IMG/VR virus record: IMGVR_UViG_3300037245_000477
Span: 1-50,533 of that record
Origin: a virus
Reading direction: 5' to 3' (one strand)
DNA length: 50,533 nucleotides
The first letter of the stretch is position 1; each line of letters opens with the position of its first letter. Of this stretch, positions 5,998 to 46,702 are shown one piece after another. The position numbers were made by a program, and so were the translations under genes. The notes beneath the pieces were generated by a model. It made no database searches, was not told the origin of the DNA, and saw nothing but the letters and a program-made list of their open reading frames with translations.

Positions 5998-6028
5998 TTG
6001 ACTTTTAACCGAAAAGGACGATTATAGT
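5998..6028 (+). promoter_or_regulatory. Sigma70-like promoter of endonuclease cassette C
   Basis: TTGACT (5998-6003) and TATAGT (6023-6028) are separated by 19 nt, or 18 nt if TTATAG is used. The predicted start near 6034 coincides with the first base of the stem that begins at 6034. The same arrangement is seen at the other two endonuclease genes. The spacer is longer than ideal. Confidence 0.5.
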
Positions 6029-6033
6029 GATAT

Positions 6034-6123
6034 GCGAAGCAGTAAAAACCAATATACCAAAGCCAGACAGGGTGCATTCCGGCAATTCCGCCGTACTGCT
6101 TCGCAGCCCTGCTCTGGCTTTTT
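6034..6123 (+). promoter_or_regulatory. Pseudoknotted leader RNA with intrinsic terminator
   Basis: Four strands interleave. Strand a (6034-6044, GCGAAGCAGTA) pairs perfectly with a' (6094-6104). Strand b (6059-6066 and 6068-6072) pairs with b' (6114-6121 and 6107-6111). A small hairpin CGGC-aattcc-GCCG (6080-6093) sits directly 5' of a'. Order a-b-a'-b' is an H-type pseudoknot. b/b' ends in a T-tract (6119-6123), so it also reads as an intrinsic terminator, with a/a' as a competing or stacking helix. This suggests attenuation ahead of the endonuclease gene. No known riboswitch recognised. Confidence 0.65.
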
Positions 6124-6140
6124 CTATTGGAGATAGACAA

Positions 6141-6767
6141 ATGGCAACAGACCCCATGATAGGCAAGAAGTATCACAGATTGACGGTAATTGAGTTCGCA
6201 GGACGCTCTAAGCACAGAGCAATGTTGTATAAATGCGAATGTGAATGCGGAGAAATGTCAATTGCTCAACGCCCTCATCTAAAAAACGGACATACGAAAA
6301 GTTGTGGGTGCTTAAGCCGTGAAGGAGGACGTAAGGTTCACGGACACTCCGTAGCAGGGAAAATTACTAGGACATATTCTACATGGTTAAATATGAATGG
6401 CCGTTGCAACAACCCTAAAGCAAGAGGTTACAGCAGGTACGGAGGTAGAGGCATTACTATCTGCGAAAGATGGAAAAAATTCGAGAACTTTTTGGCTGAC
6501 ATGGGAGAACGGCCAGATAGTATGACTATCGACAGAATCAAAGGAGATAAGGGTTATTTGCCTGAAAATTGTAAATGGTCAACTAAAAAAGAACAGAACC
6601 GAAATATGAGCACAAATAAATTGCTCCTCTTTAAAGGTAAAACAAAATGCCTAGCTGAATGGTCAGAGATCATGGGCGTCAACGTGTCAACGCTTCGTGA
6701 ACGCATAAAAAGAGGTTGGTCTGTAGAAAAAGCACTGACAAAAAAAACTAAAAAGGCTTACATATGA
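6141..6767 (+). CDS. Homing-type endonuclease or DNA-binding protein with C-terminal helix-turn-helix
   Basis: 208 aa from the ATG at 6141, with GGAGA upstream; a GTG at 6027 in the same frame would run through the structured leader and is disfavoured. An N-terminal Cys cluster (CECECGE, about 32-37; SCGC, about 54-57) looks metal-binding. Then come YGGRGITICERW (about 100-111), TIDRI and NCKWS, a set typical of free-standing phage HNH/homing-associated proteins. The C-terminal CLAEWSEIMGV...WSVEKAL resembles a NUMOD-type helix-turn-helix. It has its own promoter and leader. Its stop overlaps the primase start (ATGA), as expected for a mobile gene fitted into an operon. Catalysis is inferred. 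Confidence 0.65.
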   Translation: MATDPMIGKKYHRLTVIEFAGRSKHRAMLYKCECECGEMSIAQRPHLKNGHTKSCGCLSREGGRKVHGHSVAGKITRTYSTWLNMNGRCNNPKARGYSRYGGRGITICERWKKFENFLADMGERPDSMTIDRIKGDKGYLPENCKWSTKKEQNRNMSTNKLLLFKGKTKCLAEWSEIMGVNVSTLRERIKRGWSVEKALTKKTKKAYI

Positions 6768-9492: not shown

Positions 9493-9526
9493 GGGGGACG
9501 CTAAAACATATCTTGCGTCTCCCGCC
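9493..9526. terminator. Inverted repeat between convergent operons
   Basis: GACGC (9497-9501) pairs with GCGTC (9515-9519). The stem extends by GGG (9494-9496) with CCC (9521-9523) past a bulged T, around a 13-nt loop. It overlaps the stop of the minus-strand recombinase gene and sits 11 nt after the plus-strand lipoprotein stop. That is where a shared terminator is expected, but U-tracts are poor in both directions. Confidence 0.4.
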
Positions 9527-10274
9527 TTATTATACTTCTGATCGTCCCGAAAGCCCATTTTCCCTTAACTGTCACCGGCTTATCTTTGAACATCTTGGTA
9601 GTCGGTCGGGCGTGGAACCCTTCCTTTGCGTCCAAATAAACAGCAATCTCCCTGAGTGTCCACGCGCGACATTCTCCCTCTGGCTCCTCGCGCAGAAACA
9701 TTATCTTGTCGATTATCTTGCGCTCACGCTCGTCAGGAAGCATCCTAGCGTCGTTGTCAGGGTCTTTTCTCCATCCATACGGCAAAGTGGCAGACATCCT
9801 GCGTCCACTGGCTTGGTGGCGAAGCATAGCGTCCGAGGTGCATTCAGAGATTTTCATCCGGTCAAGCTCATTAAAAGCAGACATAACAGTAAACATACAC
9901 TGCCCCATAGGGGTCGAAGTGTCGAAAGTCTCCTTGACTGAACACAGCGTAGCATTGCCCTTCGTCAGCCGTTCAGCGATCTGCAAAGCATCGCGTGTCG
10001 ATCTCGCCAGCCTGCTGAGTGAGTAGAACACCAGACAAGCCTTTGCGCGGATCGCGTGTTCAATCGCAGACTGCAAGCCGGGACGATTATCAGCATTCGC
10101 GCCCGACAGTGCTTCGTCCTCATAACTGCCGATGACAGCCATGTTGTGCAGCTTACAGTGCGAAGTGCAATATTCAAACTGTGTATCGAGACTTTCGCAG
10201 GTGTCGGCGTGCCTGCGCGGTGAAAAACGAGTATAAATTACACTTTCCTTCTTCGGTTCTTTCTTTTTACCCAT
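9501..10274 (-). CDS. Small serine recombinase (resolvase/invertase family)
   Basis: 257 aa from the ATG at 10274, which overlaps the upstream stop (TAATG) and follows AAGGAA; an ATG at 10295 has no ribosome binding site. The catalytic N-terminal domain has YTRFS (nucleophile Ser18), a SLDTQ segment and LSRLARS (active-site arginines). A recombinase domain follows (LPYGWRKDPDNDARMLPDERE...LREIAVYLDA...GTIRSII). It lacks the zinc ribbon and coiled coil of large phage integrases. Integration, inversion or resolution are all possible. Last gene of the minus operon. Confidence 0.82.
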   Translation of the reverse strand: MGKKKEPKKESVIYTRFSPRRHADTCESLDTQFEYCTSHCKLHNMAVIGSYEDEALSGANADNRPGLQSAIEHAIRAKACLVFYSLSRLARSTRDALQIAERLTKGNATLCSVKETFDTSTPMGQCMFTVMSAFNELDRMKISECTSDAMLRHQASGRRMSATLPYGWRKDPDNDARMLPDERERKIIDKIMFLREEPEGECRAWTLREIAVYLDAKEGFHARPTTKMFKDKPVTVKGKWAFGTIRSIIRRETQDMF

Positions 10275-10429
10275 TAGCCGTTCCTTCCGTACCATATTGT
10301 TTCGCAGATTGACTGTATGCCGTTATCGCAGATGTAACGTAAAGCCCCTGCGATGACAGCTATAATTATCACAGCACGCATCAATGTTGCGCCTAGGCGG
10401 ATAATCTCCCATTTAATTACTTTGTCCAT
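10274..10429 (-). CDS. Small single-helix membrane protein, 51 aa
   Basis: Begins MDKVIKWEIIRLG. One hydrophobic helix (about 15-30, TLMRAVIIIAVIAGAL) precedes a Cys-containing C-terminus (YICDNGIQSICETIW). AAAGG lies upstream. Its TAA overlaps the recombinase ATG and its start lies inside the preceding gene. No family recognised. Confidence 0.55.
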   Translation of the reverse strand: MDKVIKWEIIRLGATLMRAVIIIAVIAGALRYICDNGIQSICETIWYGRNG

Positions 10430-13758: not shown

Positions 13759-13815
13759 TGATTTATTGGAATAATCCGAACAGACTCCGAGTGCAATCTG
13801 ATTGCAGTGTTAACA

Positions 13816-13855
13816 GAGGAGAGGAGAGGAGAGGAGAGGAGAGGAGAGGAGAGGA
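13816..13855. repeat. (GAGGA)8 purine tract
   Basis: Eight perfect 5-bp GAGGA units run from 13816 to 13855, then GAGAA. The tract is all purine on the plus strand and forms a mirror repeat, so it could adopt triplex (H-DNA) structure under negative supercoiling. It marks the left edge of the T-poor zone. Such short tandem repeats vary in copy number by slippage. Confidence 0.85.
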
Positions 13856-14352
13856 GAGAAAGAAGGCAGGCCAAAACACTAGGGGTCACAGTCTGCGCAA
13901 ACTGTAGGCAGTCACGACCGCAACAGCCTGAACACCAAGAGAGCAAACAGCTTGAGAACCAGGAGGGGATCGACCCAGCAGCCAGCAACCGGAGGAGATC
14001 AGGACGAACAGCCAGTACCACGGAACACAGACAGCCAGAGCAACCACGCAAGGCGACAATGACCCGAACAGTCAAAGACAGGGGAGAGAGAGACTACAGG
14101 AGAGCAGGCAAGGCGTAGCGTCAGACGGACGGCGTGACGTACAAACAGAGGGCAGGACGTACTGGCATAGTAAAGGGACACAGCCACACCACAACACCAG
14201 CCGAGGCATACACACTTACCCAGCGAACGCAACAGCCTACGACATGAGAGCAAGTAACACATACAGAGACAGACGTACAGCGTAGCAGGGACAGCAGGAC
14301 GGACAGCACCAGACAGGCATAGTAAGCAGATACAGACACACCACAACACCCA

Positions 14353-17903: not shown

Positions 17904-17931
17904 TTGACTTTCTGTAGATACATGTTATTAT
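17904..17931 (+). promoter_or_regulatory. Sigma70-like promoter of HNH-AP2 cassette A
   Basis: TTGACT (17904-17909), 16-nt spacer, TATTAT (17926-17931). The predicted start near 17938 falls at the base of the first stem of the leader RNA. The geometry is identical to the promoter of cassette B (46094-46121), which supports both. Confidence 0.7.
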
Positions 17932-17935
17932 TTGT

Positions 17936-18014
17936 ATGGCTAGGCTTAGCGGCTGAAAAGTGGGGCATCTCGACCCACCTGCCATCAATTATTTCGAGAG
18001 ATACTTACGAGAGG
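17936..18014 (+). promoter_or_regulatory. Pseudoknotted leader RNA, copy A
   Basis: P1: ATGGC.AGG (17936-17944, T17941 bulged) with CTGCCAT (17979-17985). P2: GTGGG (17960-17964) with CCCAC (17974-17978) and a 9-nt loop. Pseudoknot: loop TCTCGA (17968-17973) with TCGAGA (17994-17999). The loop's CTCG can also pair with the Shine-Dalgarno CGAGAGG (18008-18014). Copy B (46126-46203) keeps P1 as sequence but changes two pairs of P2 and two of the pseudoknot in a compensatory way. This is a conserved RNA structure in the leader of the HNH-AP2 gene. I do not recognise the class. Confidence 0.82.
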
Positions 18015-18020
18015 TATAAC

Positions 18021-18515
18021 ATGAAACAGATTCCGCTAACACAAGGTAAATTTGCATTAGTTGACGACGAAGACTACGAAGAAGTTATGAGGTATGAATG
18101 GTATCCCAACAAAAAGAGTAATACGACTTACGCAATAAGGAATGTTCGCGTTTGCGGCAAGTACGTTGGTACTCAGCGTATGCACAGATTTATCCTTGAC
18201 TTACCACGAGACAAGCACTGCGACCATAAAGACGGCAACGGCCTGAATAACACAAGAGCAAACATAAGGCCATGCACTTGCAGGCAAAATCATTACAACC
18301 AAAAGCTATCATCTAAGAATACTTCTGGCTTTAAAGGAGTTGCGTGGAATACTCGCGACAGTAAGTGGCGAGCCTATATCAAGAAAGAAGGAAAGCAGAT
18401 TTTTCTAGGTAATTTTTTCTGTATCGTAAAAGCGGCGAAGGCATACGACGGAAAGGCGACAGAGATATTCGGCGAATTTGCTAAGCTAAACTTCCCAGAA
18501 GGAGTCAAGGTATGA
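18021..18515 (+). CDS. HNH-AP2 homing-type endonuclease, copy A
   Basis: 164 aa from the ATG at 18021 (GAGAGG 6 nt upstream). An N-terminal KFALVDDEDYEEV module precedes an HNH core (H55-R56, D68-H69-K70, N81) and an AP2-type DNA-binding domain (about 103-155; GFKGVAW, WRAYI, LGNF, AAKAYD). Free-standing genes of this kind spread by cutting alleles that lack them. The stop overlaps the terminase start (ATGA), with own promoter and structured leader upstream. Paralogous to 46211-46702, roughly 35-40% identical by eye. Confidence 0.85.
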   Translation: MKQIPLTQGKFALVDDEDYEEVMRYEWYPNKKSNTTYAIRNVRVCGKYVGTQRMHRFILDLPRDKHCDHKDGNGLNNTRANIRPCTCRQNHYNQKLSSKNTSGFKGVAWNTRDSKWRAYIKKEGKQIFLGNFFCIVKAAKAYDGKATEIFGEFAKLNFPEGVKV

Positions 18516-34439: not shown

Positions 34440-36290
34440 ATGGCAGAATCACTACCAAGTGCAGAAAACAATAAACTTTGGGGAACAGCTTATAATGGCT
34501 ATTTGCTTGTCGGCCACAATACAGACGGGACTCATTTTGGCGGCATTTTCAATGTCAAAGACCCTGCTTACGGCGCTGTTGGCGATGGCGAAGCTGACGA
34601 TACTGCTGCAATAGTATCAGCTATCATAGCTGCAAACGCAGCGGGCGGAGGAACTGTTTATTTCCCCCCCGGCACGTACAACGTAACCGGAGAAATCTCA
34701 ATCCTGTCAAACGTTACGCTTTTTGGAGACAACGCTACTATATTCCTTATTGCCAATTCTGATACTATAATTTTCCCGATTGTGTCTGGCAGTAATATAA
34801 TAGTAGACGGACTAGAGATAGACGGTAATGGTGATAATCAAGGTTCTACTTCTAATTTTTTCAATATGGGAGGCACGAACGACAATATTACAATTAAAAA
34901 CTGCCATTTACACGATGGAAAAGGTGCTGCTTATGCGAACGTAAGTTCAGCTACATCGAACATGAAGTTTATTGATAACTGGGTGCATGATTTCACAAGC
35001 AATGGTATTAGTATGACAGGTATAGGGACTACCTCCAATACACTTATTTCAAGAAATACTTTTACCGACTTACAGAAAGCGGTTTCAAGTCAACACAATA
35101 CAGATGATATAGCACATGTAGGCATTAGAATCACTGATAACTATGTTAAGGATATGAAAATAACCACACCTGGATTTGGCTTTGAGATGGGTGCGATTGA
35201 CACGACAGATATTTCCAACAACATCATAGACACATGTTTTAGGGGTGTTGGTATTGGAATTGAGGGTGCTGCAACTGTAACCTTATCTAATAACACCGTT
35301 AAAGGGGCGACAGATGTTGCTTTCGAGGTATCAAGTCAGGATGTGGGTGGATCAATACTTATGGAGGGTAATATTTTCATCAATTGCGTTGGAGGGATTG
35401 TAACTTCAACGCAAAATGGAATAAATTACAATATCACTGCCAATGATAATGAATTTGCAAACACACCTAGTGGAGACACTACGACTGAGGGGATTCGTTT
35501 TTCAGCGATCAACGGTACAATTTCCAATAATACGTTTCATATTAGCGATGCCGACAGTGGGGAAGCTATCCTGATTCAGGGAGGTGGAGGCGTAAATGCC
35601 CAAAATATAAACTGCATTGGCAATACCATCTTCTTTGACGCCACTGTAAGAACATTACCTCCGACTGCAATAGCCTTGGCTGGCGCGTCAGTAGTAACCG
35701 TTTCGAATAATATCTGCGTTATCGGTGACGATTCAGGTACGTCGGGCATAATACGAGTAAGTTCAAATGATTCCGACCATGTTTTCATAGAAGATAATCG
35801 CGTTATTTACGCAGGCGTAGGGATAGCAACTAATCCTGCGATTAAAATAACAGGCACAGAGGCAGAGGATTGTTCCATAGCCAGAAACTACATAGAAGGT
35901 TTTGCGATAGGCATAAATACTACTGGGAATACATCTTTCCCTGTTTCTATTAAAGACAATGTATTTATTGGTAACACGGCAAATATCCGAGCAGACATAA
36001 GCCATCAAACAGAAGCAACTACAACCTTGGATAATACCGGCACACCAACGGTTTCAGGTGCTACGATATGTCTTACAGGTGGAACTGCAACTATTACAGA
36101 TTTTGATGACGGGTTAACTAACCAGATAATCACAGTGATCGCAGAGCATTCGCTTGATATTACAGACGGAACAAACATATTCCTTAGCGGAAGTGCAACA
36201 TGGTCAATGACCGCGACAGACACGCTAGTATTGATTTGTAAGGCTGATAATAAATGGTATGAGTTAAGCCGTGGAGATAATGGAGCATAA
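34440..36290 (+). CDS. Tailspike with pectate-lyase (right-handed beta-helix) fold
   Basis: 616 aa. FNVKDPAYGAVGDGEADDTA followed by GGGTVYFPPGTY is the hallmark start of the pectate-lyase-3 superfamily. About 450 residues of beta-helix repeats follow (N-x-I/V-x-N-N-T type; NCHLHDGKG, SNNIIDTCFRG, IEDNRVIYAG). A short beta-sandwich end may trimerise. Such spikes bind and often cut host polysaccharide. Active-site residues cannot be assigned by eye. AAGGAG upstream; the stop overlaps the next ATG. Confidence 0.85.
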   Translation: MAESLPSAENNKLWGTAYNGYLLVGHNTDGTHFGGIFNVKDPAYGAVGDGEADDTAAIVSAIIAANAAGGGTVYFPPGTYNVTGEISILSNVTLFGDNATIFLIANSDTIIFPIVSGSNIIVDGLEIDGNGDNQGSTSNFFNMGGTNDNITIKNCHLHDGKGAAYANVSSATSNMKFIDNWVHDFTSNGISMTGIGTTSNTLISRNTFTDLQKAVSSQHNTDDIAHVGIRITDNYVKDMKITTPGFGFEMGAIDTTDISNNIIDTCFRGVGIGIEGAATVTLSNNTVKGATDVAFEVSSQDVGGSILMEGNIFINCVGGIVTSTQNGINYNITANDNEFANTPSGDTTTEGIRFSAINGTISNNTFHISDADSGEAILIQGGGGVNAQNINCIGNTIFFDATVRTLPPTAIALAGASVVTVSNNICVIGDDSGTSGIIRVSSNDSDHVFIEDNRVIYAGVGIATNPAIKITGTEAEDCSIARNYIEGFAIGINTTGNTSFPVSIKDNVFIGNTANIRADISHQTEATTTLDNTGTPTVSGATICLTGGTATITDFDDGLTNQIITVIAEHSLDITDGTNIFLSGSATWSMTATDTLVLICKADNKWYELSRGDNGA

Positions 36291-36856
36291 TGAGCGATTT
36301 AGTAGTACACATTTTAAATCACGGTTACGACAACAACGACCCGGTATATCTGTCGTGGCTGACTGATACGTTTTTTGTTGCTGATAAGAACGACCACAAC
36401 TTTAAGTTGGTTCGGACTTACGCGGGCGATGTTTACCTGCAATGGACAGAGGATATTACTTCTGGGTACGTTGTTCAGGCGAACATTCTGCCTATCGAGA
36501 GTTATGCTGTTCTGGGACCGAAGCCACTTTCGGCAGACGATTTTGCTAATACGAAGCTGACAGACTTGGTAATGATTTCTGGCGGTGGTGCGTTGGGCGG
36601 TTCTGAGCTTGACACTGACGGCTTGACGATGGATTTGTTCGTGAAAGACACCAGCGAAGAAGTTACCGAAGCAATCAAGGCTGATGCCACGCCACAGTAC
36701 ACATACACGCAGACTGGCCCCGGCAGGGCGCAGAACCAGCGACCGGACATTGCTGGGCTGGTAGCAGGCATTAAGCTGTCAAACGCAGTCCTCGACGAAA
36801 CGTGGGCTATTGAGAAAGTGTCCACGAAGACGAAGCCGTTTGGGAGGAAAACCTAA
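36290..36856 (+). CDS. Virion-region hypothetical protein, 188 aa
   Basis: MSDLVVHILNHGYDNNDPVY begins a beta-rich N-terminal half with aromatic residues, and a more helical, basic end (DETWAIEKVSTKTKPFGRKT). Coupled to the tailspike (ATAATG) and to the next fibre gene, which starts at its last base (TAATG). Probably a tail-fibre assembly or attachment protein; no family recognised. Confidence 0.5.
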   Translation: MSDLVVHILNHGYDNNDPVYLSWLTDTFFVADKNDHNFKLVRTYAGDVYLQWTEDITSGYVVQANILPIESYAVLGPKPLSADDFANTKLTDLVMISGGGALGGSELDTDGLTMDLFVKDTSEEVTEAIKADATPQYTYTQTGPGRAQNQRPDIAGLVAGIKLSNAVLDETWAIEKVSTKTKPFGRKT

Positions 36857-38370
36857 TGGCTGGACAAATTGTAGTTTCAGGAGCAACCAAAGCTGACATC
36901 AACAAAATCAGACGGCGTTTGCAGTTATTGTCGAGTGCATTGGCGCAGGCACTTTTCAAGGGTTCATTCCCCTCAGAAGCGGCACTTATATCCGAACATG
37001 GTACGCCGAAAGAGGGTTGGAACTACTACAATACTTCGATAGGCCAGACCTTGGCGTATCACAAGGGAGCGTGGTATCAGTACACTATTGACGGCGAGAA
37101 TGGAACGAACAGCGATTACAAAGGTTCGTTCACTGTTGCGCCGTCCGACCCGGTTACAGACGATGCTTACTACGACTCTGTTGACGGCGTTGTTTACATT
37201 TACAATGGCGTTGCATGGGAAATAATGTCGCAGGCTGGAACAGGCATTGCGGTCACTTACAACGACAGTGACCTTGACGCAACACCAGCCGACCCGACAG
37301 GGACAGGCGAAACAGGCGGCTGGCATCTTGACGCGACCGAAGACGTAAACTGGTTGAGCCAGAAAGTAGGCGCTGGCGACTGGGGAACTCCGATTCCAGC
37401 AAAGAATTTGGTCGGGGCGGTTGGGCCAGAGGGACCGCAGGGCGACCCCGGCGAGGATGGCACAGACGGAACGAATGGTACAGATGGCACGGATGGTTCA
37501 ATAGTCCCGATACTCAGTGCAGTTGACTTCAAGAGCAATGACCCGACAACAACAGTAAGCTGGTCACAGGGAACAATCAACTTCGGTACTGCCGAAATTG
37601 CAATGACAGGCGGTGGCGACAGTACGACATTGAAATACATTTACTGGGTTGGGCCGTCTGCAACAGTCTTGTCATATACAAACACGCTGGCGACTGCGAC
37701 AGCGACAGGCAACTGGCTTGTCTGCATAAACGATGCAGGTACGGCTTACCCTGCCAACGCAACACGTCTTATCAATGCTGGCATGATTACAGTAAATACG
37801 CTGGCGGCGATAGCAGTTGACGCAGGAACATTGACGGCTGGCGATATAACAGCATTGACAATTAGTGCTGATAAGATGACTGTTGGAACCTTGGAGGCAG
37901 GTAGGATATTCTCGTCTTCACTGGCAGGAGTTGGGGCGTTCGGTTTTCTTCCGCTGTTGACGGACATCACTAGCCTGCAACACAGTTCAAATTCCTACCA
38001 ATCAACCCAAACTGCTCCTTGGCTGGCAAGTTCGGACCAAACTGCACTGGCAGTAATGAAAATCCAGCGGGTGTTCAGCTTTACTATTACAGGCGATATG
38101 TATTGCGCGATAGGCGAATGGGATGAATCTGGCGACAAAACAGATTGGGCGAACTATGATGTTCTTGCAAGCGACACACACGATTTGCTGGCAAGCGAAG
38201 ACGAAGCTCAGGTATGGTATGGGAATATTTCAATGGAAGCAGCATTGACAAGCGGCAAGTGGTACATGATTTACCAAGAATCTAAACTTGACTCTGTTAC
38301 GACAAGCAATATAGTAGCAAGAGTGGACTATAATTTCTTAGAGACAAAAATTCTAAACGTAGATAAATAG
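36856..38370 (+). CDS. Fibre protein with collagen-like Gly-X-Y segment
   Basis: 504 aa. An N-terminal helix (KADINKIRRRLQLLSSALAQ, possible coiled coil) precedes repeated small domains (GWNYYNTSIGQTLAYHKGAW; DDAYYDSVDGVVYIYNGVAW). Nine Gly-X-Y triplets run at about 187-214 (GPEGPQGDPGEDGTDGTNG and on), then a C-terminal beta domain. Collagen-like stretches in phage fibres trimerise the shaft. Likely a side fibre acting with the tailspike. Confidence 0.7.
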   Translation: MAGQIVVSGATKADINKIRRRLQLLSSALAQALFKGSFPSEAALISEHGTPKEGWNYYNTSIGQTLAYHKGAWYQYTIDGENGTNSDYKGSFTVAPSDPVTDDAYYDSVDGVVYIYNGVAWEIMSQAGTGIAVTYNDSDLDATPADPTGTGETGGWHLDATEDVNWLSQKVGAGDWGTPIPAKNLVGAVGPEGPQGDPGEDGTDGTNGTDGTDGSIVPILSAVDFKSNDPTTTVSWSQGTINFGTAEIAMTGGGDSTTLKYIYWVGPSATVLSYTNTLATATATGNWLVCINDAGTAYPANATRLINAGMITVNTLAAIAVDAGTLTAGDITALTISADKMTVGTLEAGRIFSSSLAGVGAFGFLPLLTDITSLQHSSNSYQSTQTAPWLASSDQTALAVMKIQRVFSFTITGDMYCAIGEWDESGDKTDWANYDVLASDTHDLLASEDEAQVWYGNISMEAALTSGKWYMIYQESKLDSVTTSNIVARVDYNFLETKILNVDK

Positions 38371-38379
38371 GAGCAAAAA

Positions 38380-39015
38380 ATGGTATTCAGAAATCCATAC
38401 GCAGGAGCGTCGGGCGTTGATGCACTTAGAAGCGGCATAGCATACCAAAAGCAGTTCGGCCCAAAGGTGTTGACTCCTGCGGAAATAAACAAGCAAAAAG
38501 TTGAAGACTTTACTACCGAGTTCACCGAGAAGCAGGATGCGGCAAACTTGGCGAACGAAGAACGCTACGCAGACATTCTTGGTCAGTACGGCAGGACGAT
38601 TGAGGGTGCTACTGCCAGAGGGCCGGAGACATTGACTTTTGACGAGTCACAGTTTGCTGGCTTGGGCGATCAGGCGAAGAAAGACATTGCACAGACGTAC
38701 ACGAACCTTACGGCGGCTAATACACAAGGTCTGGTCAGTTCTGGGTTGGCTGGCACGACAGCAAGGGGCGCGGTGACAGCGGCATCAGCAAGAGGGCAGG
38801 TAGATGCAACTGGCAGGTTGAACGAAAGCCTGCGACGTGAGCGTATAAGTTACGGTTCAGACATTGACAGATTCAATGCGACAACCAGAAACGCATACGC
38901 CCAGTACATTGACAGTCTGACAGCCCAGAAGTTGAGCTTCATGGAACGGCGAGAAGACGAAGGCCCGAACGAGGCATTATTCCTGCAACAGTTAGAGAGA
39001 TTCGGCAACATTTAG
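38380..39015 (+). CDS. Internal virion (ejection-type) protein, 211 aa
   Basis: Ala/Gln/Arg-rich, almost all helical, no signal or membrane part. It is first of four consecutive genes with this composition at the end of the structural operon. In podoviruses such genes encode internal core proteins ejected before DNA. The SAL-type motif GLAGTTARGAVTAASARGQV is repetitive. Shine-Dalgarno AGGAG. The role is inferred from order and composition. Confidence 0.6.
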   Translation: MVFRNPYAGASGVDALRSGIAYQKQFGPKVLTPAEINKQKVEDFTTEFTEKQDAANLANEERYADILGQYGRTIEGATARGPETLTFDESQFAGLGDQAKKDIAQTYTNLTAANTQGLVSSGLAGTTARGAVTAASARGQVDATGRLNESLRRERISYGSDIDRFNATTRNAYAQYIDSLTAQKLSFMERREDEGPNEALFLQQLERFGNI

Positions 39016-39024
39016 GAGCAAAAG

Positions 39025-40773
39025 ATGGCTATTAGAGTAAAACATGCTGTATCGGGCAAGACTTCTGGGGACATTGCTTTCCAGACAGGCAAGGGCCAGC
39101 GTAGGGAACGTGACTTGCGGGTTGCGCAACAGCAGGCGGCAGAGCAACGCAGATTGCAAGCGGCGGCAGAGTCACAGGACAAGTCGCTGGCGGCGCGAGC
39201 GACCGAGTTTGAAGCTGGCCGTGAAGACGCAGAAGTTGAACGTCTGGACAGACTATCCGAGCAAGAACGAGCAAGAGAGTTCACAGCGGAGCGTGACGTC
39301 TACTCGAGGGCTGGCAGGGTCGAAGACTTGGAGTTTGGCAGGGAGTCCACTTCGATAGCTGGCAGGGAAGCCGAGGAACGCCGGGCAAGGGAGTTCGCAC
39401 TGGCAGCAAAACACAAGGCAGATGGTGACGAACGCCAGTACACAGTCGAGCAACAGCGAAAGAAAGACGCGATCAACAGTTCCAGGGTCAAGATTGACGA
39501 GGGCGTTGCCAACGGTACTTACACTGAGTTTCAGGCTGAACAGTTCCATCAGGAGTTGGATAAGCAGGAATTGGGCCTGTCGAAGATGTGGGGGCCGAAA
39601 AAGATTACTCCGCTGGATGAACTGAAAGCAAATACTTTCACTGCCGACAATGGTACACTGATGTATTACAATCTCAAGACGGGGAAAGTCGAGGTTTTCG
39701 ACGGACAGATTACGCCACTGGAAAAACTTGAAGCCACTGAAAAGGAAAAGACTCAGCAGTATGACTGGGACACGGCAGAGAAAGCTACAGCTGCGGAAGA
39801 TGCCCTAAATAGGACTAAGAATATTATAGACATGGCGAACCAGCTTGGCATTACAATTCCAGATGCGATAGAAAGATATGACTTGATAAATCCGAAATCG
39901 CCTGCACAGGTCATATCCGACAAGACAGGTAGGCCGATAGAACAAGTCAAAGCCGATATTGCAGCGGCACAGCAACGCGGTCAGCAGGGGAGTCAGCCAC
40001 AGGGTTCACCGCAACCGACAGGCCAGCCACAGCAGGCAGAGCGAAGACTTAAACTGCTTGAGGAGTTGCCAGCGGAAGACCAAGAGGCGGTATTGAATAA
40101 ATTCAGGAAAGCAGAAGCAAAAAGGCAGAAGCCAAGGAAAGGGTTTAGCATTTATGGCGGCCCAGCACAAGGCACGAAGTCTAACTTTGTTCCTATGAGC
40201 GAGCAACAGTTCATTGACCTTTACAACTCCGACGAGAACTTTGCAAACGACTTCAAGACGGAACTGCGTGAGGGAGTTGCGCCTGCAACGCTGAAAGAGG
40301 CTACGGTGTCAGATAAAAAGGCAATGTACGAAAACTATAAAACTACGGTCGAGCCGGGCGAGAAGTTGGAATCTAAGTTTAGGTTTGAACAACTGATCGA
40401 GGACGACCCAGAAGCTATCGCTTTCTACTTCAACCTAAAAAAAAAAGTAACGGAAGGGGCCAGTAAAGTGCCTTTAGATGACTCCATAAGACCAGATGGA
40501 ACAGCAAAAGATATTGGATTCTTGGGTGAATTACAACTTCCAGACGGCAAGGTTGCTACGGAATACTCTATCAGTTCGTCAGATGTTAAAGTAGATGGCA
40601 AGGAAATAGACTTCCCTACGCTCGTCCCAACTTTAACGCAAGAAGAAATTGATGTTATGGTTAATGATGTAATTCCGAATAATGGAAAAATACCAGAAAG
40701 TATTGTCAGAAAAGCGATTGCTCATGCTCGAAAGAGAATAAAAGCAGGACAAAGCCCGTTTTTTAGCAAATAG
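39025..40773 (+). CDS. Internal virion protein with conserved C-terminal domain
   Basis: 582 aa. The first 190 residues are a long charged coiled coil (Arg/Glu/Ala). A Gln/Pro-rich linker lies near 315-335. The final 95 residues (SIRPDGTAKDIGFLGELQLP... PTLVPTLTQEEIDVMVN ... AIAHARKRIKAGQSPFF) form a distinct domain I recall at the ends of several phage virion proteins. The domain keeps its full pattern here. Probably carried in the capsid. Confidence 0.6.
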   Translation: MAIRVKHAVSGKTSGDIAFQTGKGQRRERDLRVAQQQAAEQRRLQAAAESQDKSLAARATEFEAGREDAEVERLDRLSEQERAREFTAERDVYSRAGRVEDLEFGRESTSIAGREAEERRAREFALAAKHKADGDERQYTVEQQRKKDAINSSRVKIDEGVANGTYTEFQAEQFHQELDKQELGLSKMWGPKKITPLDELKANTFTADNGTLMYYNLKTGKVEVFDGQITPLEKLEATEKEKTQQYDWDTAEKATAAEDALNRTKNIIDMANQLGITIPDAIERYDLINPKSPAQVISDKTGRPIEQVKADIAAAQQRGQQGSQPQGSPQPTGQPQQAERRLKLLEELPAEDQEAVLNKFRKAEAKRQKPRKGFSIYGGPAQGTKSNFVPMSEQQFIDLYNSDENFANDFKTELREGVAPATLKEATVSDKKAMYENYKTTVEPGEKLESKFRFEQLIEDDPEAIAFYFNLKKKVTEGASKVPLDDSIRPDGTAKDIGFLGELQLPDGKVATEYSISSSDVKVDGKEIDFPTLVPTLTQEEIDVMVNDVIPNNGKIPESIVRKAIAHARKRIKAGQSPFFSK

Positions 40774-40781
40774 GAGCCACA

Positions 40782-43667
40782 GTGCCAACATACGAAGAAA
40801 TGATAGAGCAAGCCGCTTCTGCGAACGCCATCCCCGAAGCTGGGTTTACGCAGCCACAGACTGCACTTGCATACGATGATCTGATAGCACAGGCCGCTTT
40901 CCCAGCACTGCCGACACAGCCTGCCGAGGAAGCAGGGCCAGTAGAGAAGATCGGTTTTTGGGAGAACGTCCAGCGTGGCGGCTGGGACGGGTTTTTCAAC
41001 AAGGCGACCTTTGGCGTGAAAGAGTTGGCAGAGTCGGCTTCGCTATACAAAAGTGCGACCCGCTTGCAAAGTGGCAGATACAGTACCGGACCGATTGGCG
41101 ACAAGGAAAGAGAAAAGGACGAAACAAAAGTAGTTGCCTACCTTGAGGAACAGGCCGAGGTTTCAGAGCGTGGGAAGACTATTCCAGCAAAGGTTGGCGA
41201 TATTGTAGGCGAAATGTTACCGTTCATGGCAGAGTTTATCGCAACAGGCGGAGTGGCTTCTTTGGGTAAGGCGGCGGCAAAGAAAGGCATTTTGAAGCTG
41301 GTAGCCAAAACCACAGGCAAAGCGGTTGCTGGTAAGGTTGGGAAAGTAGCGGCAGGTGTCGGTGGACTGGTGACATCAGCGGCGATCAGAACAGCCTTGA
41401 CACCGCACAGGACGCTGAATGACTTCATTCAAAGGCGTATGCCAGATATTCAGGTAACGCCAGAGGGTCAGTTGATATTCGAGGAAGCCAAAGACAGCCC
41501 GTACAAGTCTGCGTACAAGGCAATCGGCAATCAGTTTATTGAAATGTTTTCCGAGGAATCTGGTACGGCGTTGGGTATCATTGGCGGTAAAATTGCAAGT
41601 AAGGTTCTGCCGAAAGGCGCAGTCACGGCGTTCCGTAAGCTGAAAGATGCGTGGGTATCAGGCGGAGCAGGCCGGACAGCGAAAGAGTTTGCTGAGAAAA
41701 TGGCAACCAAAGCAGGCTTTAACGGCATACTTGAAGAATACAGCGAAGAACGGCTGGGCGCGTTGATGCGGACTGTAACAGGCATAGACGATGGCGAGGG
41801 TACGACTTTTGAGAAGATACAAAAGGCGTTATGGCCGGGAGCAGAACAGGCGTTTGTCGAACTGATAGCGTTTAGTGTTCCGGGCGTTGCGAGGGCTGGT
41901 GCGGCAGTTGCTTTCGACAAGACAACCTACAGCCGAAAGGACTTGCAGGAACAGGGAGTGACCGAACAGACTTCTGCACCGGAACGCAAAGAGAAGTTTG
42001 ACGCAGACGTAGCGATTGCCGAAGAAGCTGGCACTGATACAGTCCACACGATGCCGGACGGTACGACCATGCCGGGGCCTGAGCATGCGGAGGCTGTCGC
42101 TGGCTCTGAGCGTGTTGTTGTTGCGCCCGTGGAAACGGAGGCAGAAGCCGAGATCGTCGAACAGCCAGCCGTACAGGAGCAGGAAACTGTACCAGAGGCC
42201 GTGGAGACTCCGCAGGTCGTAGAGCCAGTGAAGAAACAGCCCAGCAAGGGCAAACAGCCAAAAACTAAATTGCCAGAAGTTAGTACGAAATTAGTAGATA
42301 AGCCCAAGCCAGCCAAGAAGCCTAGTAAGGGCAAGCAGGTGGATGTTGAGACGGAACAGGCGGTAGAAGCTGAAAAACCGAAAGATACGGAAAGAGTTGA
42401 CATTGAAGTTGACCACACAGACATCGTGACGACGGAGGATGCGACTGATACCGATACGGTCGATCACTTCGTTACCAAGTTTGAGGCTGGCGAGACAGTA
42501 GAACCGATTACCCTAGTAGAGTCTGCCGCTGGCGATTTAGTAGTGAAAGACGGCCATCACAGGTTGGCGGCGGCAAAAAAGGCAGGGATTAAGAAAATAC
42601 CAGCCATCATTAAAAGATTTACTACCACGCAAGAAGAATTAGACAGTATAGAGGCAGGTGCCGAAAGCAGGCGACTAGAAGACCAAGAGTTTATTAAACG
42701 CATACAGGATCAGCCATTAACACCTGAACAGCAAGCCGATCCGGTAGAAGTGGCTAGAGACTCACTGGAAAAAGCACAAGGCCAAAGTGAGGAATTGTTT
42801 AATTCTACCTTGAAAGGCATTGAAACATCAGAAGTTATCGCAATCGTTGAATCTGGCGACAAGGTGAGCGGTTTTCTTTTGAATCAGGAGTTAGCGGTAA
42901 GATATAATAATTTAACAAAAGCTGAAAAAAAAGGGATTAGTTTTCAGGAATGGAAAGCGTCAAAAAGAATAAAGCCCGTACAGAAACCCAGCAAAGGCAA
43001 ACAGGCCAAAAAGACTGTTGAGGTCGCCGAGACAGTTGTGGACACGAAAAAAGAGAAAATCACCCAAGGTGAATTATCGGAGAAAGAGGATAAGAAAACA
43101 GCGAAACCTGCGGCAGGGAAAGTCAAGTCAACCAGTAAGATTGCCTTGCAGATGGAAAAGACGCTGGCAGACCAAGGACTTGAGCTAGGTATTGAGTATG
43201 ACCCGATTTCAATTAAGGAGCAGGTTGCAAAAGCCATTGCCTTTGTCGGCAAGTCGGTTGACGAAGCAAAGAAGATAGCGTATGGTGCAGTCAACCAGAC
43301 TGATATACTGGACAATGCTATTCGGCTTGCGTATTTCCAGAAACAGATAGAGGCCGAAAACTTTGATGAAGCCGCAAGGATAGCAAACTGGATTCGGTCA
43401 GAAAACACCAGACTGGGGCAGGAAATCGTAGTCAACAAGGGATTCCTTGACGATACTTCGGTGGCTAATTTCACAAAACAGCTTGTAACCGCCAAGATGG
43501 AAAAGGCCGGGGCTGGGCTGGGGAAAGCTATGAAGAAATCGCCTATCAAAAGAGTAAATAAGCGAGTAAAAAAAGAAGTATTGACCCTAAAAGAACGAGT
43601 CGCAGCGGCAAGGAAGAAGGATTTTGCACAGGCTCAAGAAATCATAGATTCGTTAAGGTGTCCCTAA
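40782..43667 (+). CDS. Large internal virion protein with embedded ParB/Srx-like domain
   Basis: 961 aa, GTG start after AGGAG. N-terminal about 400 residues are helical with Ala/Gly-rich membrane-active-looking segments (VGGLVTSAAIRTAL). A Glu/Val/Pro-rich linker carries KPSKGKQ-type repeats (near 490, 520 and 735). Residues about 565-615 form a ParB/Srx fold with VVKDGHHRLAAAKKAGI. The C-terminus is Lys-rich. It is likely ejected into the host. The ParB-like part could act on nucleotide or DNA there. Confidence 0.65.
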   Translation: MPTYEEMIEQAASANAIPEAGFTQPQTALAYDDLIAQAAFPALPTQPAEEAGPVEKIGFWENVQRGGWDGFFNKATFGVKELAESASLYKSATRLQSGRYSTGPIGDKEREKDETKVVAYLEEQAEVSERGKTIPAKVGDIVGEMLPFMAEFIATGGVASLGKAAAKKGILKLVAKTTGKAVAGKVGKVAAGVGGLVTSAAIRTALTPHRTLNDFIQRRMPDIQVTPEGQLIFEEAKDSPYKSAYKAIGNQFIEMFSEESGTALGIIGGKIASKVLPKGAVTAFRKLKDAWVSGGAGRTAKEFAEKMATKAGFNGILEEYSEERLGALMRTVTGIDDGEGTTFEKIQKALWPGAEQAFVELIAFSVPGVARAGAAVAFDKTTYSRKDLQEQGVTEQTSAPERKEKFDADVAIAEEAGTDTVHTMPDGTTMPGPEHAEAVAGSERVVVAPVETEAEAEIVEQPAVQEQETVPEAVETPQVVEPVKKQPSKGKQPKTKLPEVSTKLVDKPKPAKKPSKGKQVDVETEQAVEAEKPKDTERVDIEVDHTDIVTTEDATDTDTVDHFVTKFEAGETVEPITLVESAAGDLVVKDGHHRLAAAKKAGIKKIPAIIKRFTTTQEELDSIEAGAESRRLEDQEFIKRIQDQPLTPEQQADPVEVARDSLEKAQGQSEELFNSTLKGIETSEVIAIVESGDKVSGFLLNQELAVRYNNLTKAEKKGISFQEWKASKRIKPVQKPSKGKQAKKTVEVAETVVDTKKEKITQGELSEKEDKKTAKPAAGKVKSTSKIALQMEKTLADQGLELGIEYDPISIKEQVAKAIAFVGKSVDEAKKIAYGAVNQTDILDNAIRLAYFQKQIEAENFDEAARIANWIRSENTRLGQEIVVNKGFLDDTSVANFTKQLVTAKMEKAGAGLGKAMKKSPIKRVNKRVKKEVLTLKERVAAARKKDFAQAQEIIDSLRCP

Positions 43668-46090
43668 TGGCAAAAGCACTGTGCATACCAAAAGCAGAAG
43701 CAGATAAGATCATAAAGGCGTTGCAAAGCGGTGACCTGTCGATAGAGTCTTTGTATAACATGAACTCGTCTGCGGAGCGACAGGCTGCGTGGGCGAAGCA
43801 TACAGGCCCAGAGTTGGCGGCACTAATCAACCCTCAATGGGAAGCTGCGGCGGCAAATACAACCAGAGGTGCAATGACGAAGCTGATGACTGAGCTTGCT
43901 GGTTTGTCAAAAGGGAAAGCCAAGCCCAAAACGAAGACTATTCTTGACAAGGTGAAAGCACTGGACGATGCAGGACTTCTGGACGCAGACACGCAGGAGG
44001 CTACCTTTACAGACTTGATAATGACTCGGCTTGGCGTGAATGTCACAGGCGAAGAACTCGGTTTCATTACGAAAAAGGCAAAAGAGATCGAGGGTCTGCA
44101 AGTAGAAGCTGCAAAAGCGGAAGCCAAAGGGATTAAAGAGGGTGGCCAGACAAAAGAAGCGGCTGAGAAGTGGCGAGAAGAACTGCAACCGAAGATAATC
44201 GCATGGAAAAAGTCGTTGCAGGAAATGGATAAGTTCTTAAATTCCCGCGCACCAGTCCACACTTTAGCCGTCCTGACAGGCAGTATTGGGCGTGGAAACA
44301 TGTTGACAAGCGTATCGGTTGGTACAGTCAACAGCATAAGCAACTCTGTCCAAGGGCTATTTAAGGCTATTGAGCGAAGAATGGTATTACGGCAGATCAA
44401 AGGCTCTAATACGCCATTTGCTGTAGAATACGTCAAGATGGCAATGTCTGTATTCAACCAGACAGGCTTTGATATTAGCAGGGAATATGCAGAAGATATG
44501 CGGCTGGGCGAAAAACTCACGCACAATGAGGGGCCGTCAATTACAGAAGCGAAAGGGGTTCGCCAAAAGGGAGCAGCGGCAACGAGGGCTGTTGCGCGAG
44601 AGCAGGCGAAGCTGGTCTTCAAGTATATCCTTGGCTATTCGGATGTTATTTTCGCAGCAGCAGCAAGGGCAGACTATGCAAATATAGGGGCTACGAAGAT
44701 CGCTAAGATGCGCAAAGGGTTCACGGACGCTCAGAACGAAGCCTACGCATTACAGGTGTTCAAGGAGTCTGTTAAAACGACAGGCGTGGACATAATCACA
44801 CAGCAAGGCGAAGACGCTACTCTGATTAGCGTGGAGGCCATATCAGAGGCAGAAAGTGCCACATGGACAGATAAGAGATTCATGGCCGAGAAAGCGATGG
44901 GGCTGAGAGATTGGATTAACGGCGTTACTGGCGACTTACAGCTTGGGTTCTGGACGATACCGTTTGTCAAGACAGGCACTAATGTAGTTCAGTTTGGCCT
45001 TGAAGCAAGCCCGCTTGGTGCAATACCAGCCTTTGCTAATTTCGTTAAGTTCCACAAAGCCACGAAAGACCCGACTTCAACCGAAACTGACCTAAGGGAA
45101 GCATCGCAAGATATGTGGAGGTCTATATCGAGGGCTGGGCTGGGTACGCTTATGGCTGGCATACTAGTCGGCATGATCGACCCAGACGACTTCTTGAGTG
45201 CCTACGACTCATTGACCAAAAAAGAACGAGAACTCCGGGGACTTAAAAAAGGCGTTTACAATGCAGTCAAGATCGGGGAAACATGGATTTCGTTGGACTT
45301 CTTCGGTCCACTTGCGCCAGCGATAGTTGGAATGCTCTACGCAAAGAAGTATGGCGACGGCCCAGTTGATACAGCTTTTAAGTTCGCACAGGGAGCAGGC
45401 CAACAAACCTTACAAGTCCCCGGCATGGACAGTTTTGAAGACTTAATCGAAAGTTGGCGTGAACTGTTGACGGCAGATACGCTGGCAGACGGAACTAAAG
45501 CTATCTCAGTATCAACAATAAACACGATCCGGTCAAGGGCGATACCTGGCATATTCGGTTCCGTAGCAAAGGGACTGGACACCAAGGACAGGCAGATTGA
45601 CCGCGGTAAGTGGCTAGACGGCATCAAGGCTAATCTGCCACTGTTACGGGAGACTTTACCTGCTAAGATTGACGTTACGACCGGCGAGGAAGTCGGGGGA
45701 GCAGGTAGAACTGCACTCGGAAATCTATTCTTCAACATAGTATCGGGAAGCCGTGTAAAAAGGGCCAATGTTTCAGACCTGATCGACGAAATATCACGGC
45801 TTGACGATGCAGGGCATTCCCCAACAATAACAAGGTGGGATTCTTCAAGCAAAGTCCGTGGATTGAAAACACAGGTCAGCATCGACAAGTTCCAAGACGC
45901 CTTGAAGTGGGTCGGCAGGGAGTACGGCAGGCGGGCAACCAGACTGCTCAAAACAGCCAAATACAAGCGGGCATCGGACGAGGACAAGCGTGATTTGCTG
46001 AACGAAGTTCGTACAGATGTTCGTTCAATGATGCTCAGAAAGTTCGGGTATCGCAAGCCACGGAGCAAAGGTCGGCAAGTGCGGAAATAA
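43667..46090 (+). CDS. Large internal virion (ejection-type) protein, 807 aa
   Basis: Start at 43667 (MAKALCIPKAEADKII), coupled by TAATG and preceded by AAGGTG; a GTG at 43658 adds three codons. Largely helical. Hydrophobic or amphipathic stretches near 480-500 and 545-560 (GLGTLMAGILVGMIDPDDFL; LAPAIVGMLYAKKY) would suit membrane insertion during DNA entry. The C-terminus is basic (RSKGRQVRK). Last gene of the structural operon; cassette B follows directly. Confidence 0.65.
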   Translation: MAKALCIPKAEADKIIKALQSGDLSIESLYNMNSSAERQAAWAKHTGPELAALINPQWEAAAANTTRGAMTKLMTELAGLSKGKAKPKTKTILDKVKALDDAGLLDADTQEATFTDLIMTRLGVNVTGEELGFITKKAKEIEGLQVEAAKAEAKGIKEGGQTKEAAEKWREELQPKIIAWKKSLQEMDKFLNSRAPVHTLAVLTGSIGRGNMLTSVSVGTVNSISNSVQGLFKAIERRMVLRQIKGSNTPFAVEYVKMAMSVFNQTGFDISREYAEDMRLGEKLTHNEGPSITEAKGVRQKGAAATRAVAREQAKLVFKYILGYSDVIFAAAARADYANIGATKIAKMRKGFTDAQNEAYALQVFKESVKTTGVDIITQQGEDATLISVEAISEAESATWTDKRFMAEKAMGLRDWINGVTGDLQLGFWTIPFVKTGTNVVQFGLEASPLGAIPAFANFVKFHKATKDPTSTETDLREASQDMWRSISRAGLGTLMAGILVGMIDPDDFLSAYDSLTKKERELRGLKKGVYNAVKIGETWISLDFFGPLAPAIVGMLYAKKYGDGPVDTAFKFAQGAGQQTLQVPGMDSFEDLIESWRELLTADTLADGTKAISVSTINTIRSRAIPGIFGSVAKGLDTKDRQIDRGKWLDGIKANLPLLRETLPAKIDVTTGEEVGGAGRTALGNLFFNIVSGSRVKRANVSDLIDEISRLDDAGHSPTITRWDSSSKVRGLKTQVSIDKFQDALKWVGREYGRRATRLLKTAKYKRASDEDKRDLLNEVRTDVRSMMLRKFGYRKPRSKGRQVRK

Positions 46091-46093
46091 GTC

Positions 46094-46121
46094 TTGACAA
46101 AACCATAGAAAAGGTTACAAT
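46094..46121 (+). promoter_or_regulatory. Strong sigma70-like promoter of HNH-AP2 cassette B
   Basis: Perfect TTGACA (46094-46099), 16-nt spacer, TACAAT (46116-46121). Predicted start near 46128, at the base of P1 of the leader RNA. It begins just after the stop of the preceding structural gene. Geometry equals cassette A. Confidence 0.8.
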
Positions 46122-46125
46122 TTAT

Positions 46126-46203
46126 ATGGCTAGGTTCATTACCGAAAAGGCGGACACCTTGACCGCCCTGCCATTTAATCATTTCAAGGACTATTGCAAG
46201 GAG
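46126..46203 (+). promoter_or_regulatory. Pseudoknotted leader RNA, copy B
   Basis: P1: ATGGC.AGG (46126-46134) with CTGCCAT (46168-46174). P2: GGCGG (46149-46153) with CCGCC (46163-46167), 9-nt loop. Pseudoknot: CCTTGA (46157-46162) with TCAAGG (46184-46189). Loop CCTTG can also pair with the Shine-Dalgarno CAAGG (46197-46201). Compared with copy A, two P2 pairs and two pseudoknot pairs differ on both sides, so pairing is kept. GAAAAG before P2 and ATTTC before the pseudoknot strand are unchanged. Confidence 0.82.
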
Positions 46204-46210
46204 TAGTAAA

Positions 46211-46702
46211 ATGAGAGAAATCCTCTTACAAAACGGAACAGTGGTACTTGTAGATGACGAAGACTTCGAAGCCCTATCGAAGTACAAGTGGAATTGCAAT
46301 AACTATGGCTACGCATGCAGGACGGTGGGTTTAGAGCAATGGAGGAATGGCGACAGGGAGCATTTATTGTATTCCGTAGTCCTGATGCACAGGATAATCA
46401 CGAACGCACCTAAAGGCAAAGACGTAGATCATAAGAATCACGACAGGCTCGACAATAGAAAAAACAACCTGCGTATATGTACTCGTCAACAAAACTTACG
46501 GAATAAACAGAAATCCCTAAATTCTAAATACAGATACAAAGGCGTTGAAAGGGAATCGAACCACAGATGGATAGCGAAGATTTATTACAGGAAAAAACAA
46601 GAGCGAATAGGTGTCTTTGAGACGGAAGAACTTGCCGCAAAAGCGTACGACGAAAAAGCAAAATCGCATTTCGGGGAGTTCGCTTGTCTTAATTTCAGTT
46701 AG
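46211..46702 (+). CDS. HNH-AP2 homing-type endonuclease, copy B
   Basis: 163 aa. The same three parts as the gene at 18021: the N-terminal VVLVDDEDFEAL module, an HNH core (H60-R61, D73-H74-K75, N85/N86), and an AP2 domain (about 106-158; YKGVER, WIAKIYY, GVFETEELAAKAYDEKA). AAGGAG 7 nt upstream. Inserted between the last structural gene and the following early-type genes. It does not overlap its downstream neighbour. The intact motifs suggest an active enzyme. Confidence 0.85.
   Translation: MREILLQNGTVVLVDDEDFEALSKYKWNCNNYGYACRTVGLEQWRNGDREHLLYSVVLMHRIITNAPKGKDVDHKNHDRLDNRKNNLRICTRQQNLRNKQKSLNSKYRYKGVERESNHRWIAKIYYRKKQERIGVFETEELAAKAYDEKAKSHFGEFACLNFS

Follow-up and report, generated by a model that had tools for sequence, protein, structure and literature searches.

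The stretch of DNA analysed here (the window) is an IMG/VR virus record of 50,533 bases, in which two HNH endonuclease genes are each preceded by a structured leader. Both leaders were read directly from the window and, like the genes behind them, lie on the plus strand. The gene behind the first leader (copy 1; 18021-18515) encodes an HNH-AP2 endonuclease of 164 aa that matches phrog_99 HNH endonuclease at 8e-35, with AP2 below the Pfam cut-off. The gene behind the second leader (copy 2; 46211-46702) encodes a protein of 163 aa, 42% identical to that of copy 1. The window holds a third HNH endonuclease gene (6027-6767, plus strand; phrog_374, 1.5e-68), which lacks a leader of this kind, and, on the opposite strand, a serine recombinase (9501-10295; Pfam Resolvase, phrog_95 integrase) which suggests a temperate or formerly temperate phage. 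A simple GA-rich repeat (gaggagagg...) occurs at 13807-13870, in a region of about 1.5 kb where convincing genes are few.

Comparison with Rfam 15 assigned both leaders to a known class, the int-alpA RNA (RF02996). The matches at 17933-18001 (39.7 bits) and 46123-46189 (51.2 bits) lie above the gathering threshold of 35.8 and span the whole 71-position model (1-71), from which we conclude that the leader fold is real and its class known; the Rfam 15 scan of the window gave no match besides these two. The first-pass annotation had placed both leaders and their fold correctly. Its proposal of a new RNA class, which it had made dependent on the lack of a match to a known Rfam family, is ruled out by these scores. 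In our literature search RF02996 was not named and 'int-alpA' was met only in a presence list. The int/alpA placement is a naming feature of the class and lies outside the RF02996 model. It is seen in E. coli islands, where an AlpA gene follows the ORF, whereas it is absent around the window copies, which precede HNH-AP2 genes set between late phage genes and adjoin the terminase (18512) and an ORF at 43658-46090.

In copy 1 a sigma-70-like promoter (TTGACT-16-TATTAT with TG before the -10, 17904-17931; chance expectation for the region 0.7) is followed by the 5′ strand of stem P1 (AUGGC, 17936-17940), in which C17940 begins the conserved CUAG. The last G of the conserved GAAAAG at the three-way junction (17955-17960) is also the first base of the P2 hairpin, GUGGG-GCAUCUCGA-CCCAC (17960-17978), and the 3′ strand of P1 (GCCAU) follows at 17981-17985. 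Downstream lies a site complementary to the P2 loop, here called r1 (UCGAGA, 17994-17999), and then a hairpin P3 (AUACUU-acgag-AGGUAU, 18001-18017) enclosing a second such site, r2 (CGAGA, 18008-18012), which overlaps the SD sequence GAGAGG (18009-18014; both sites together 18008-18014). The start codon at 18021 stands 3′ of the end of P3. Copy 2 has the same arrangement: promoter TTGACA-16-TACAAT (46094-46121), P1 5′ strand AUGGC (46126-46130), GAAAAG at the junction (46144-46149, its last G again opening P2), P2 hairpin GGCGG-ACACCUUGA-CCGCC (46149-46167), P1 3′ strand GCCAU (46170-46174), r1 UCAAGG (46184-46189), P3 ACUAUU-gcaagg-AGUAGU (46190-46207, also present in the MFE fold), and r2 CAAGG (46197-46201) overlapping the SD AAGGAG (46198-46203; together 46197-46203). 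Both promoters end 4 nt before AUGGC, so that the mRNA is predicted to begin with the whole element. The earlier reading that a pseudoknot RNA leads both HNH-AP2 genes of the window was confirmed, including the pairing between loop and r1. Its extent for copy 1 was correct in location and too short at 18014, since P3 reaches 18017, and it had overlooked P3 and the second loop-complementary site at the SD, on which the functional meaning rests.

Between the two window copies, P2 differs by two pairs changed on both sides (GC, UA, GC, GC, GC in copy 1 versus GC, GC, CG, GC, GC in copy 2), as does the pseudoknot between the loop and its downstream partner (UCUCGA:UCGAGA versus CCUUGA:UCAAGG). All four compensatory changes noted at first pass are thus present, and covariation holds across many homologues, in agreement with a fold under selection. 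Thermodynamic folding of the single copies gave no significance (z 0.31 and -1.01); it was set aside as uninformative, and the evidence for the fold is therefore comparative. The cmscan output for RF02996 displays nested pairs only, and the loop-r1 pseudoknot may already have been noted in the Rfam seed or in the original description of int-alpA.

Homologues were collected in several ways. A pattern of the conserved core matched 13 loci in viruses and 71 in bacteria, mainly in Burkholderiales and other Proteobacteria, and relaxed patterns added further viral loci; 25 viral records obtained with the relaxed patterns split into 15 above the Rfam cut-off and 10 below it (30.5-35.4 bits). A later pattern, with the spacing from GAAAAG to CUG one base longer and with loop and tail unconstrained, gave 86 loci. 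Six pattern matches were dropped for poor P1 or P2 (L063, L118, L120, L122, L124 and L154); L037 and L086 were also removed by the P1 filter, yet appear real. A third set was found by Rfam's own model, in which several loci were mis-parsed owing to an altered GAAAAG, and the totals of that set were not used. Of 369 genomes sampled from the class to which a Dechloromonas genome belongs, 40 had RF02996 matches. Among complete E. coli genomes, 75 of 5,426 contain DNA similar to the Photorhabdus copy with its gene start. The island order in the two E. coli genomes examined is yicC - integrase - RNA - ORF - HTH gene, the HTH gene being AlpA in the one of the two that was tested, and in RefSeq E. 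coli records the CDS begins directly 3′ of r2.

Comparison of these sequences shows the junction, P2, the loop-r1 and loop-r2 pairings, P3 and a start codon coupled to the element. About 150 relatives support P1/P1b/P2, and this three-way junction shows covariation. In an alignment of 31 sequences the 15 nested pairs were paired in 95.0% of cases, compared with 66.4% in shuffled and no more than 49% in slid controls, and 12 of the 15 showed double changes. The conserved segments of the junction are CUAG, GAAAAG and CCUG, and the P2 loop has 9 nt. Because CUAG and GAAAAG were built into most of the search patterns, their invariance is partly by construction; both are likewise present in Rfam's independent consensus, and at least one divergent relative (L210) lacks CUAG.

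Two stretches further downstream are complementary to the P2 loop, namely r1 and r2, the latter overlapping the SD in the loop of P3. The order after CCUG in nearly all loci is spacer, r1, P3 with r2 in its loop, and start codon, with 10-17 nt between the starts of r1 and r2. Examples are L009 (loop CCUGAA, r1 UUCAGG, P3 ACUAUU-acagg-AAUAGU), L137 (loop CCAUGA, r1 UCAUGG, P3 AUAAAC-aaaugga-GUUUAU followed by AUG) and the common bacterial form (loop CCUUCA, r1 UGAAGG, P3 GCACU-ugaagg-GGUGC followed by AUG). Pairing of loop and r1 was found in 79-91 of 91 sequences per position, position 3 showing TA, CG, GC and AT, and pairing of loop and r2 at positions 1-4 in 90-91 of 91, CG, GC and AT variants included. 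Kinship was controlled for by taking one representative per distinct loop and matching loops against the tails of other loci. In the first set (17 loop classes) own sites outscored those of other loci for r1 (14.18 versus 8.66) and for r2 (12.24 versus 9.32), and the same was found for the 19 classes of the later pattern (r1 13.37 versus 8.73, r2 13.13 versus 10.18), each with 0 of 20,000 permutations; in the third set both sites occurred in most parsable members. P3 strands behaved likewise (45 distinct 3′ strands; own partner 9.4 versus 6.1, 0 of 20,000). Phage classes with the loop CCGUCA showed no clear P3. In a divergent HNH-AP2 leader (L166:1422-1503) the P2 loop is shortened to CUAUCCA and its sites are GGAUA and UGGAU, the second lying just 3′ of the SD and not on it.

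These comparisons bear on whether the loop-r2 match has a role of its own. The leader might act as a static translational enhancer, in which the loop-r1 pseudoknot positions the SD and the match to r2 is incidental, r2 being SD-like. Complementarity to r1 extends over six bases compared with four or five for r2 in many copies, and an activating role in translation is known for pseudoknots placed upstream of an SD, as in repZ of ColIb-P9 (titles cited in PMC10724649). We nevertheless regard this as quite unlikely, since a leader's own r2 outscores that of other loci in two independent sets, loop and r2 change together (CUCG/CGAG, CUCA/UGAG, CCGU/ACGG, CCCAU/AUGG), and two loci without r1 (L295 and L345) retain complementarity to r2, having a six-base P3 loop with the SD that is fully complementary to the P2 loop. 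Nor is r1 likely to be a plain second SD or standby site: many r1 sites, such as UCAUGG, UCGUGG and UGACGG, do not resemble an SD, and the duplex energy with the anti-SD is -4.3 kcal/mol for r1 versus -7.3 kcal/mol for the true SD region. Since r1 co-varies with the loop and is often not SD-like, it appears to be kept for the loop and not for the ribosome. The two pairings have similar mean duplex energies (loop-r1 -8.1, loop-r2 -7.8 kcal/mol), r1 being the stronger in 54 of 91, which singles out neither as the default state.

The element is closely coupled to gene starts. An ORF of at least 100 aa preceded by an SD-like sequence starts 30-50 nt after CCUG in 85 of 99 loci, while such an ORF was found at 149 of 1,980 random positions on the same strand (7.5%). 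Any promoter-like site just before P1 was seen in 15 of 35 viral and 4 of 63 bacterial loci; as such sites are mostly found in phage copies, many copies are probably intercistronic. Behind one intact leader with r1, r2 and P3 (L008:5335-5480) the following ORF begins MKQIELTRG, like HNH-AP2, and no ORF of 35 or more codons is present, possibly a remnant of a nuclease gene.

Rfam lists int-alpA under the type 'Gene; sRNA', and such a small RNA could act in trans, its P2 loop, which resembles an anti-SD, serving as a seed that represses other mRNAs. Two loci (L133 and L077) indeed have a terminator-like hairpin at the expected place of P3 and the SD, but these were the only loci with clear hairpins of this type behind the element; both (L133:4470-4565, plus strand; L077:6537-6578, minus strand) are int-alpA-like and might represent transcription-attenuation or free small-RNA forms. 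What makes action in trans improbable is the start codon at a near-fixed distance with the SD as r2 in the 85 of 99 loci, and the co-variation of the loop with two sites on its own transcript. The loops of the two window copies differ, and each fits its own sites only (15 own versus 8-10.5 crossed), which favours action in cis. In phages with two copies (the window, and G041 with L241 and L242) every copy carries a loop of its own with sites to match, which argues against a shared target in trans. The second element of that other phage (L241:1923-2018, minus strand; G041 36000-39500) has the loop CUCA with r1 and r2 both UGAG and adds another compensated class. The overlap of r2 with the SD and the near-fixed distance to the start codon point to a switch in cis.

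We further infer that the element acts as RNA. It does occur in mobile DNA, beside nuclease and recombinase genes, as a cruciform, an operator or a homing recognition site might, but such a role at the DNA level is highly improbable given that G-U is among the pairs and that strand-specific placement ahead of start codons, overlap with the SD and distance to AUG are constraints at the level of RNA.

The proteins encoded downstream of the leaders belong to no common family. Those encoded by viruses include HNH-AP2 endonucleases (window copies, L003, L009, L121), HNH or endonuclease-VII-like proteins (L013, L123, L297, L345), a NUMOD4-HNH (L316) and a GIY-YIG protein (L295), replication initiators and DnaD/primosomal proteins (L137, L138, L153, L338), and, in L125 and its relatives, a primase-helicase-like protein about 950 aa long; the ORFs of int-alpA islands are preceded by the element as well. 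A leader specific for HNH-AP2 genes, as the first-pass annotation had it, is ruled out, since the leader is present in only 2 of the 80 nearest viral HNH-AP2 relatives; among relatives in Bacillus, Microcystis and Curvibacter phages no leader match was found. The leader would thus be a module that some nuclease genes have acquired, and not a part of the nuclease family. The cassette of copy 2 had no DNA-level relatives among phage records. In an empty-site comparison the flanking proteins had few relatives, 43% (terminase) and 30-33% identical; the cassette was absent wherever the flank was readable in these, but they are too distant to prove insertion.

We consider it likely, on the basis of sequence, that the element is a cis-acting leader for translational control whose loop alternates between r1 and the SD site. 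The three-way junction P1/P1b/P2 would present the P2 loop, of which the six central bases could pair with either r1 or r2. Pairing with r2 would form a loop-loop (kissing) contact with P3 and hide the SD beside the start codon, presumably the off state, while in the on state the single-stranded r1 would take the loop as a decoy and free the SD. The two pairings exclude one another because they need the same bases of the loop, which would make the element a switch or a tuned attenuator. L295 and L345, which keep the complementarity of loop and SD without r1, suggest that the contact of loop and SD is the basic off contact and r1 a competing decoy. Such a leader would limit the timing or the amount of translation of a nuclease or replication gene of a mobile element, and the balance might be shifted by the stage of infection, by co-transcriptional timing, by a protein, or by a ligand that binds the junction. 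A riboswitch-type leader, sensing a metabolite or a protein at the conserved junction, would be a special case of the switch in cis with the same output. The joining segments are far more conserved than the stems, as in an aptamer, and pseudoknot-gated SDs are usual in small riboswitches; with downstream genes that share no pathway (nucleases, replication proteins and ORFs of unknown function) we find this version conceivable but somewhat unlikely.

The SAM/SAH and preQ1 pseudoknot riboswitches are compact leaders with a loop that pairs with the SD region. The int-alpA leader is similar in this respect and differs in having two alternative target sites and no known ligand. In repZ of ColIb-P9 and related plasmids a hairpin loop pairs upstream of the SD and controls a replication gene. 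A loop pairing with a site upstream of the SD is shared by the leaders studied here, whereas no leader peptide or antisense RNA was seen in these and their loop also matches the SD. Compared with the RF02996 model, the leaders have the same three-way junction, CUAG, GAAAAG, P2 with its 9-nt loop and r1 at the 3′ end of the model; the model ends there, without P3, r2 with the SD, and start codon, and its listing as a small-RNA gene differs from the action in cis that our sequence evidence favours. For phage homing endonucleases, RNA structure at the RBS has been described to limit or delay translation in T4 I-TevI and Aeh1 mobE (PMC3014915). A structure apparently able to occlude the SD of a homing-type nuclease is likewise found here. 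Simple helices cover SD and AUG in those genes (PMC3014915), whereas here the SD would lie in a hairpin loop and pair with a distant junction loop that may instead take a decoy. The proposed switch, if true, would be a different route to the same end.

The analysis provides a catalogued RNA of unknown function with a concrete proposal for its mechanism, and the int-alpA class should probably be corrected from a small-RNA gene to an mRNA leader. One portable RNA module is found before at least four kinds of phage nucleases (HNH-AP2, NUMOD4-HNH, GIY-YIG and endonuclease-VII-like) and before replication genes. Freely co-varying loop, decoy and SD would make it an attractive orthogonal part for translation control. 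There is, in our estimate, a little under an even chance that mobile DNA makes wide use of int-alpA RNAs as a translational switch, in which the loop picks either the decoy or the SD of the gene that follows while a shared signal, e.g. infection stage or induction, is sensed at the junction. Selfish nucleases, replication initiators and island genes that are unrelated to one another would then be switched by the same module; because loop, decoy and SD co-vary freely, this module could be recombined before almost any gene.
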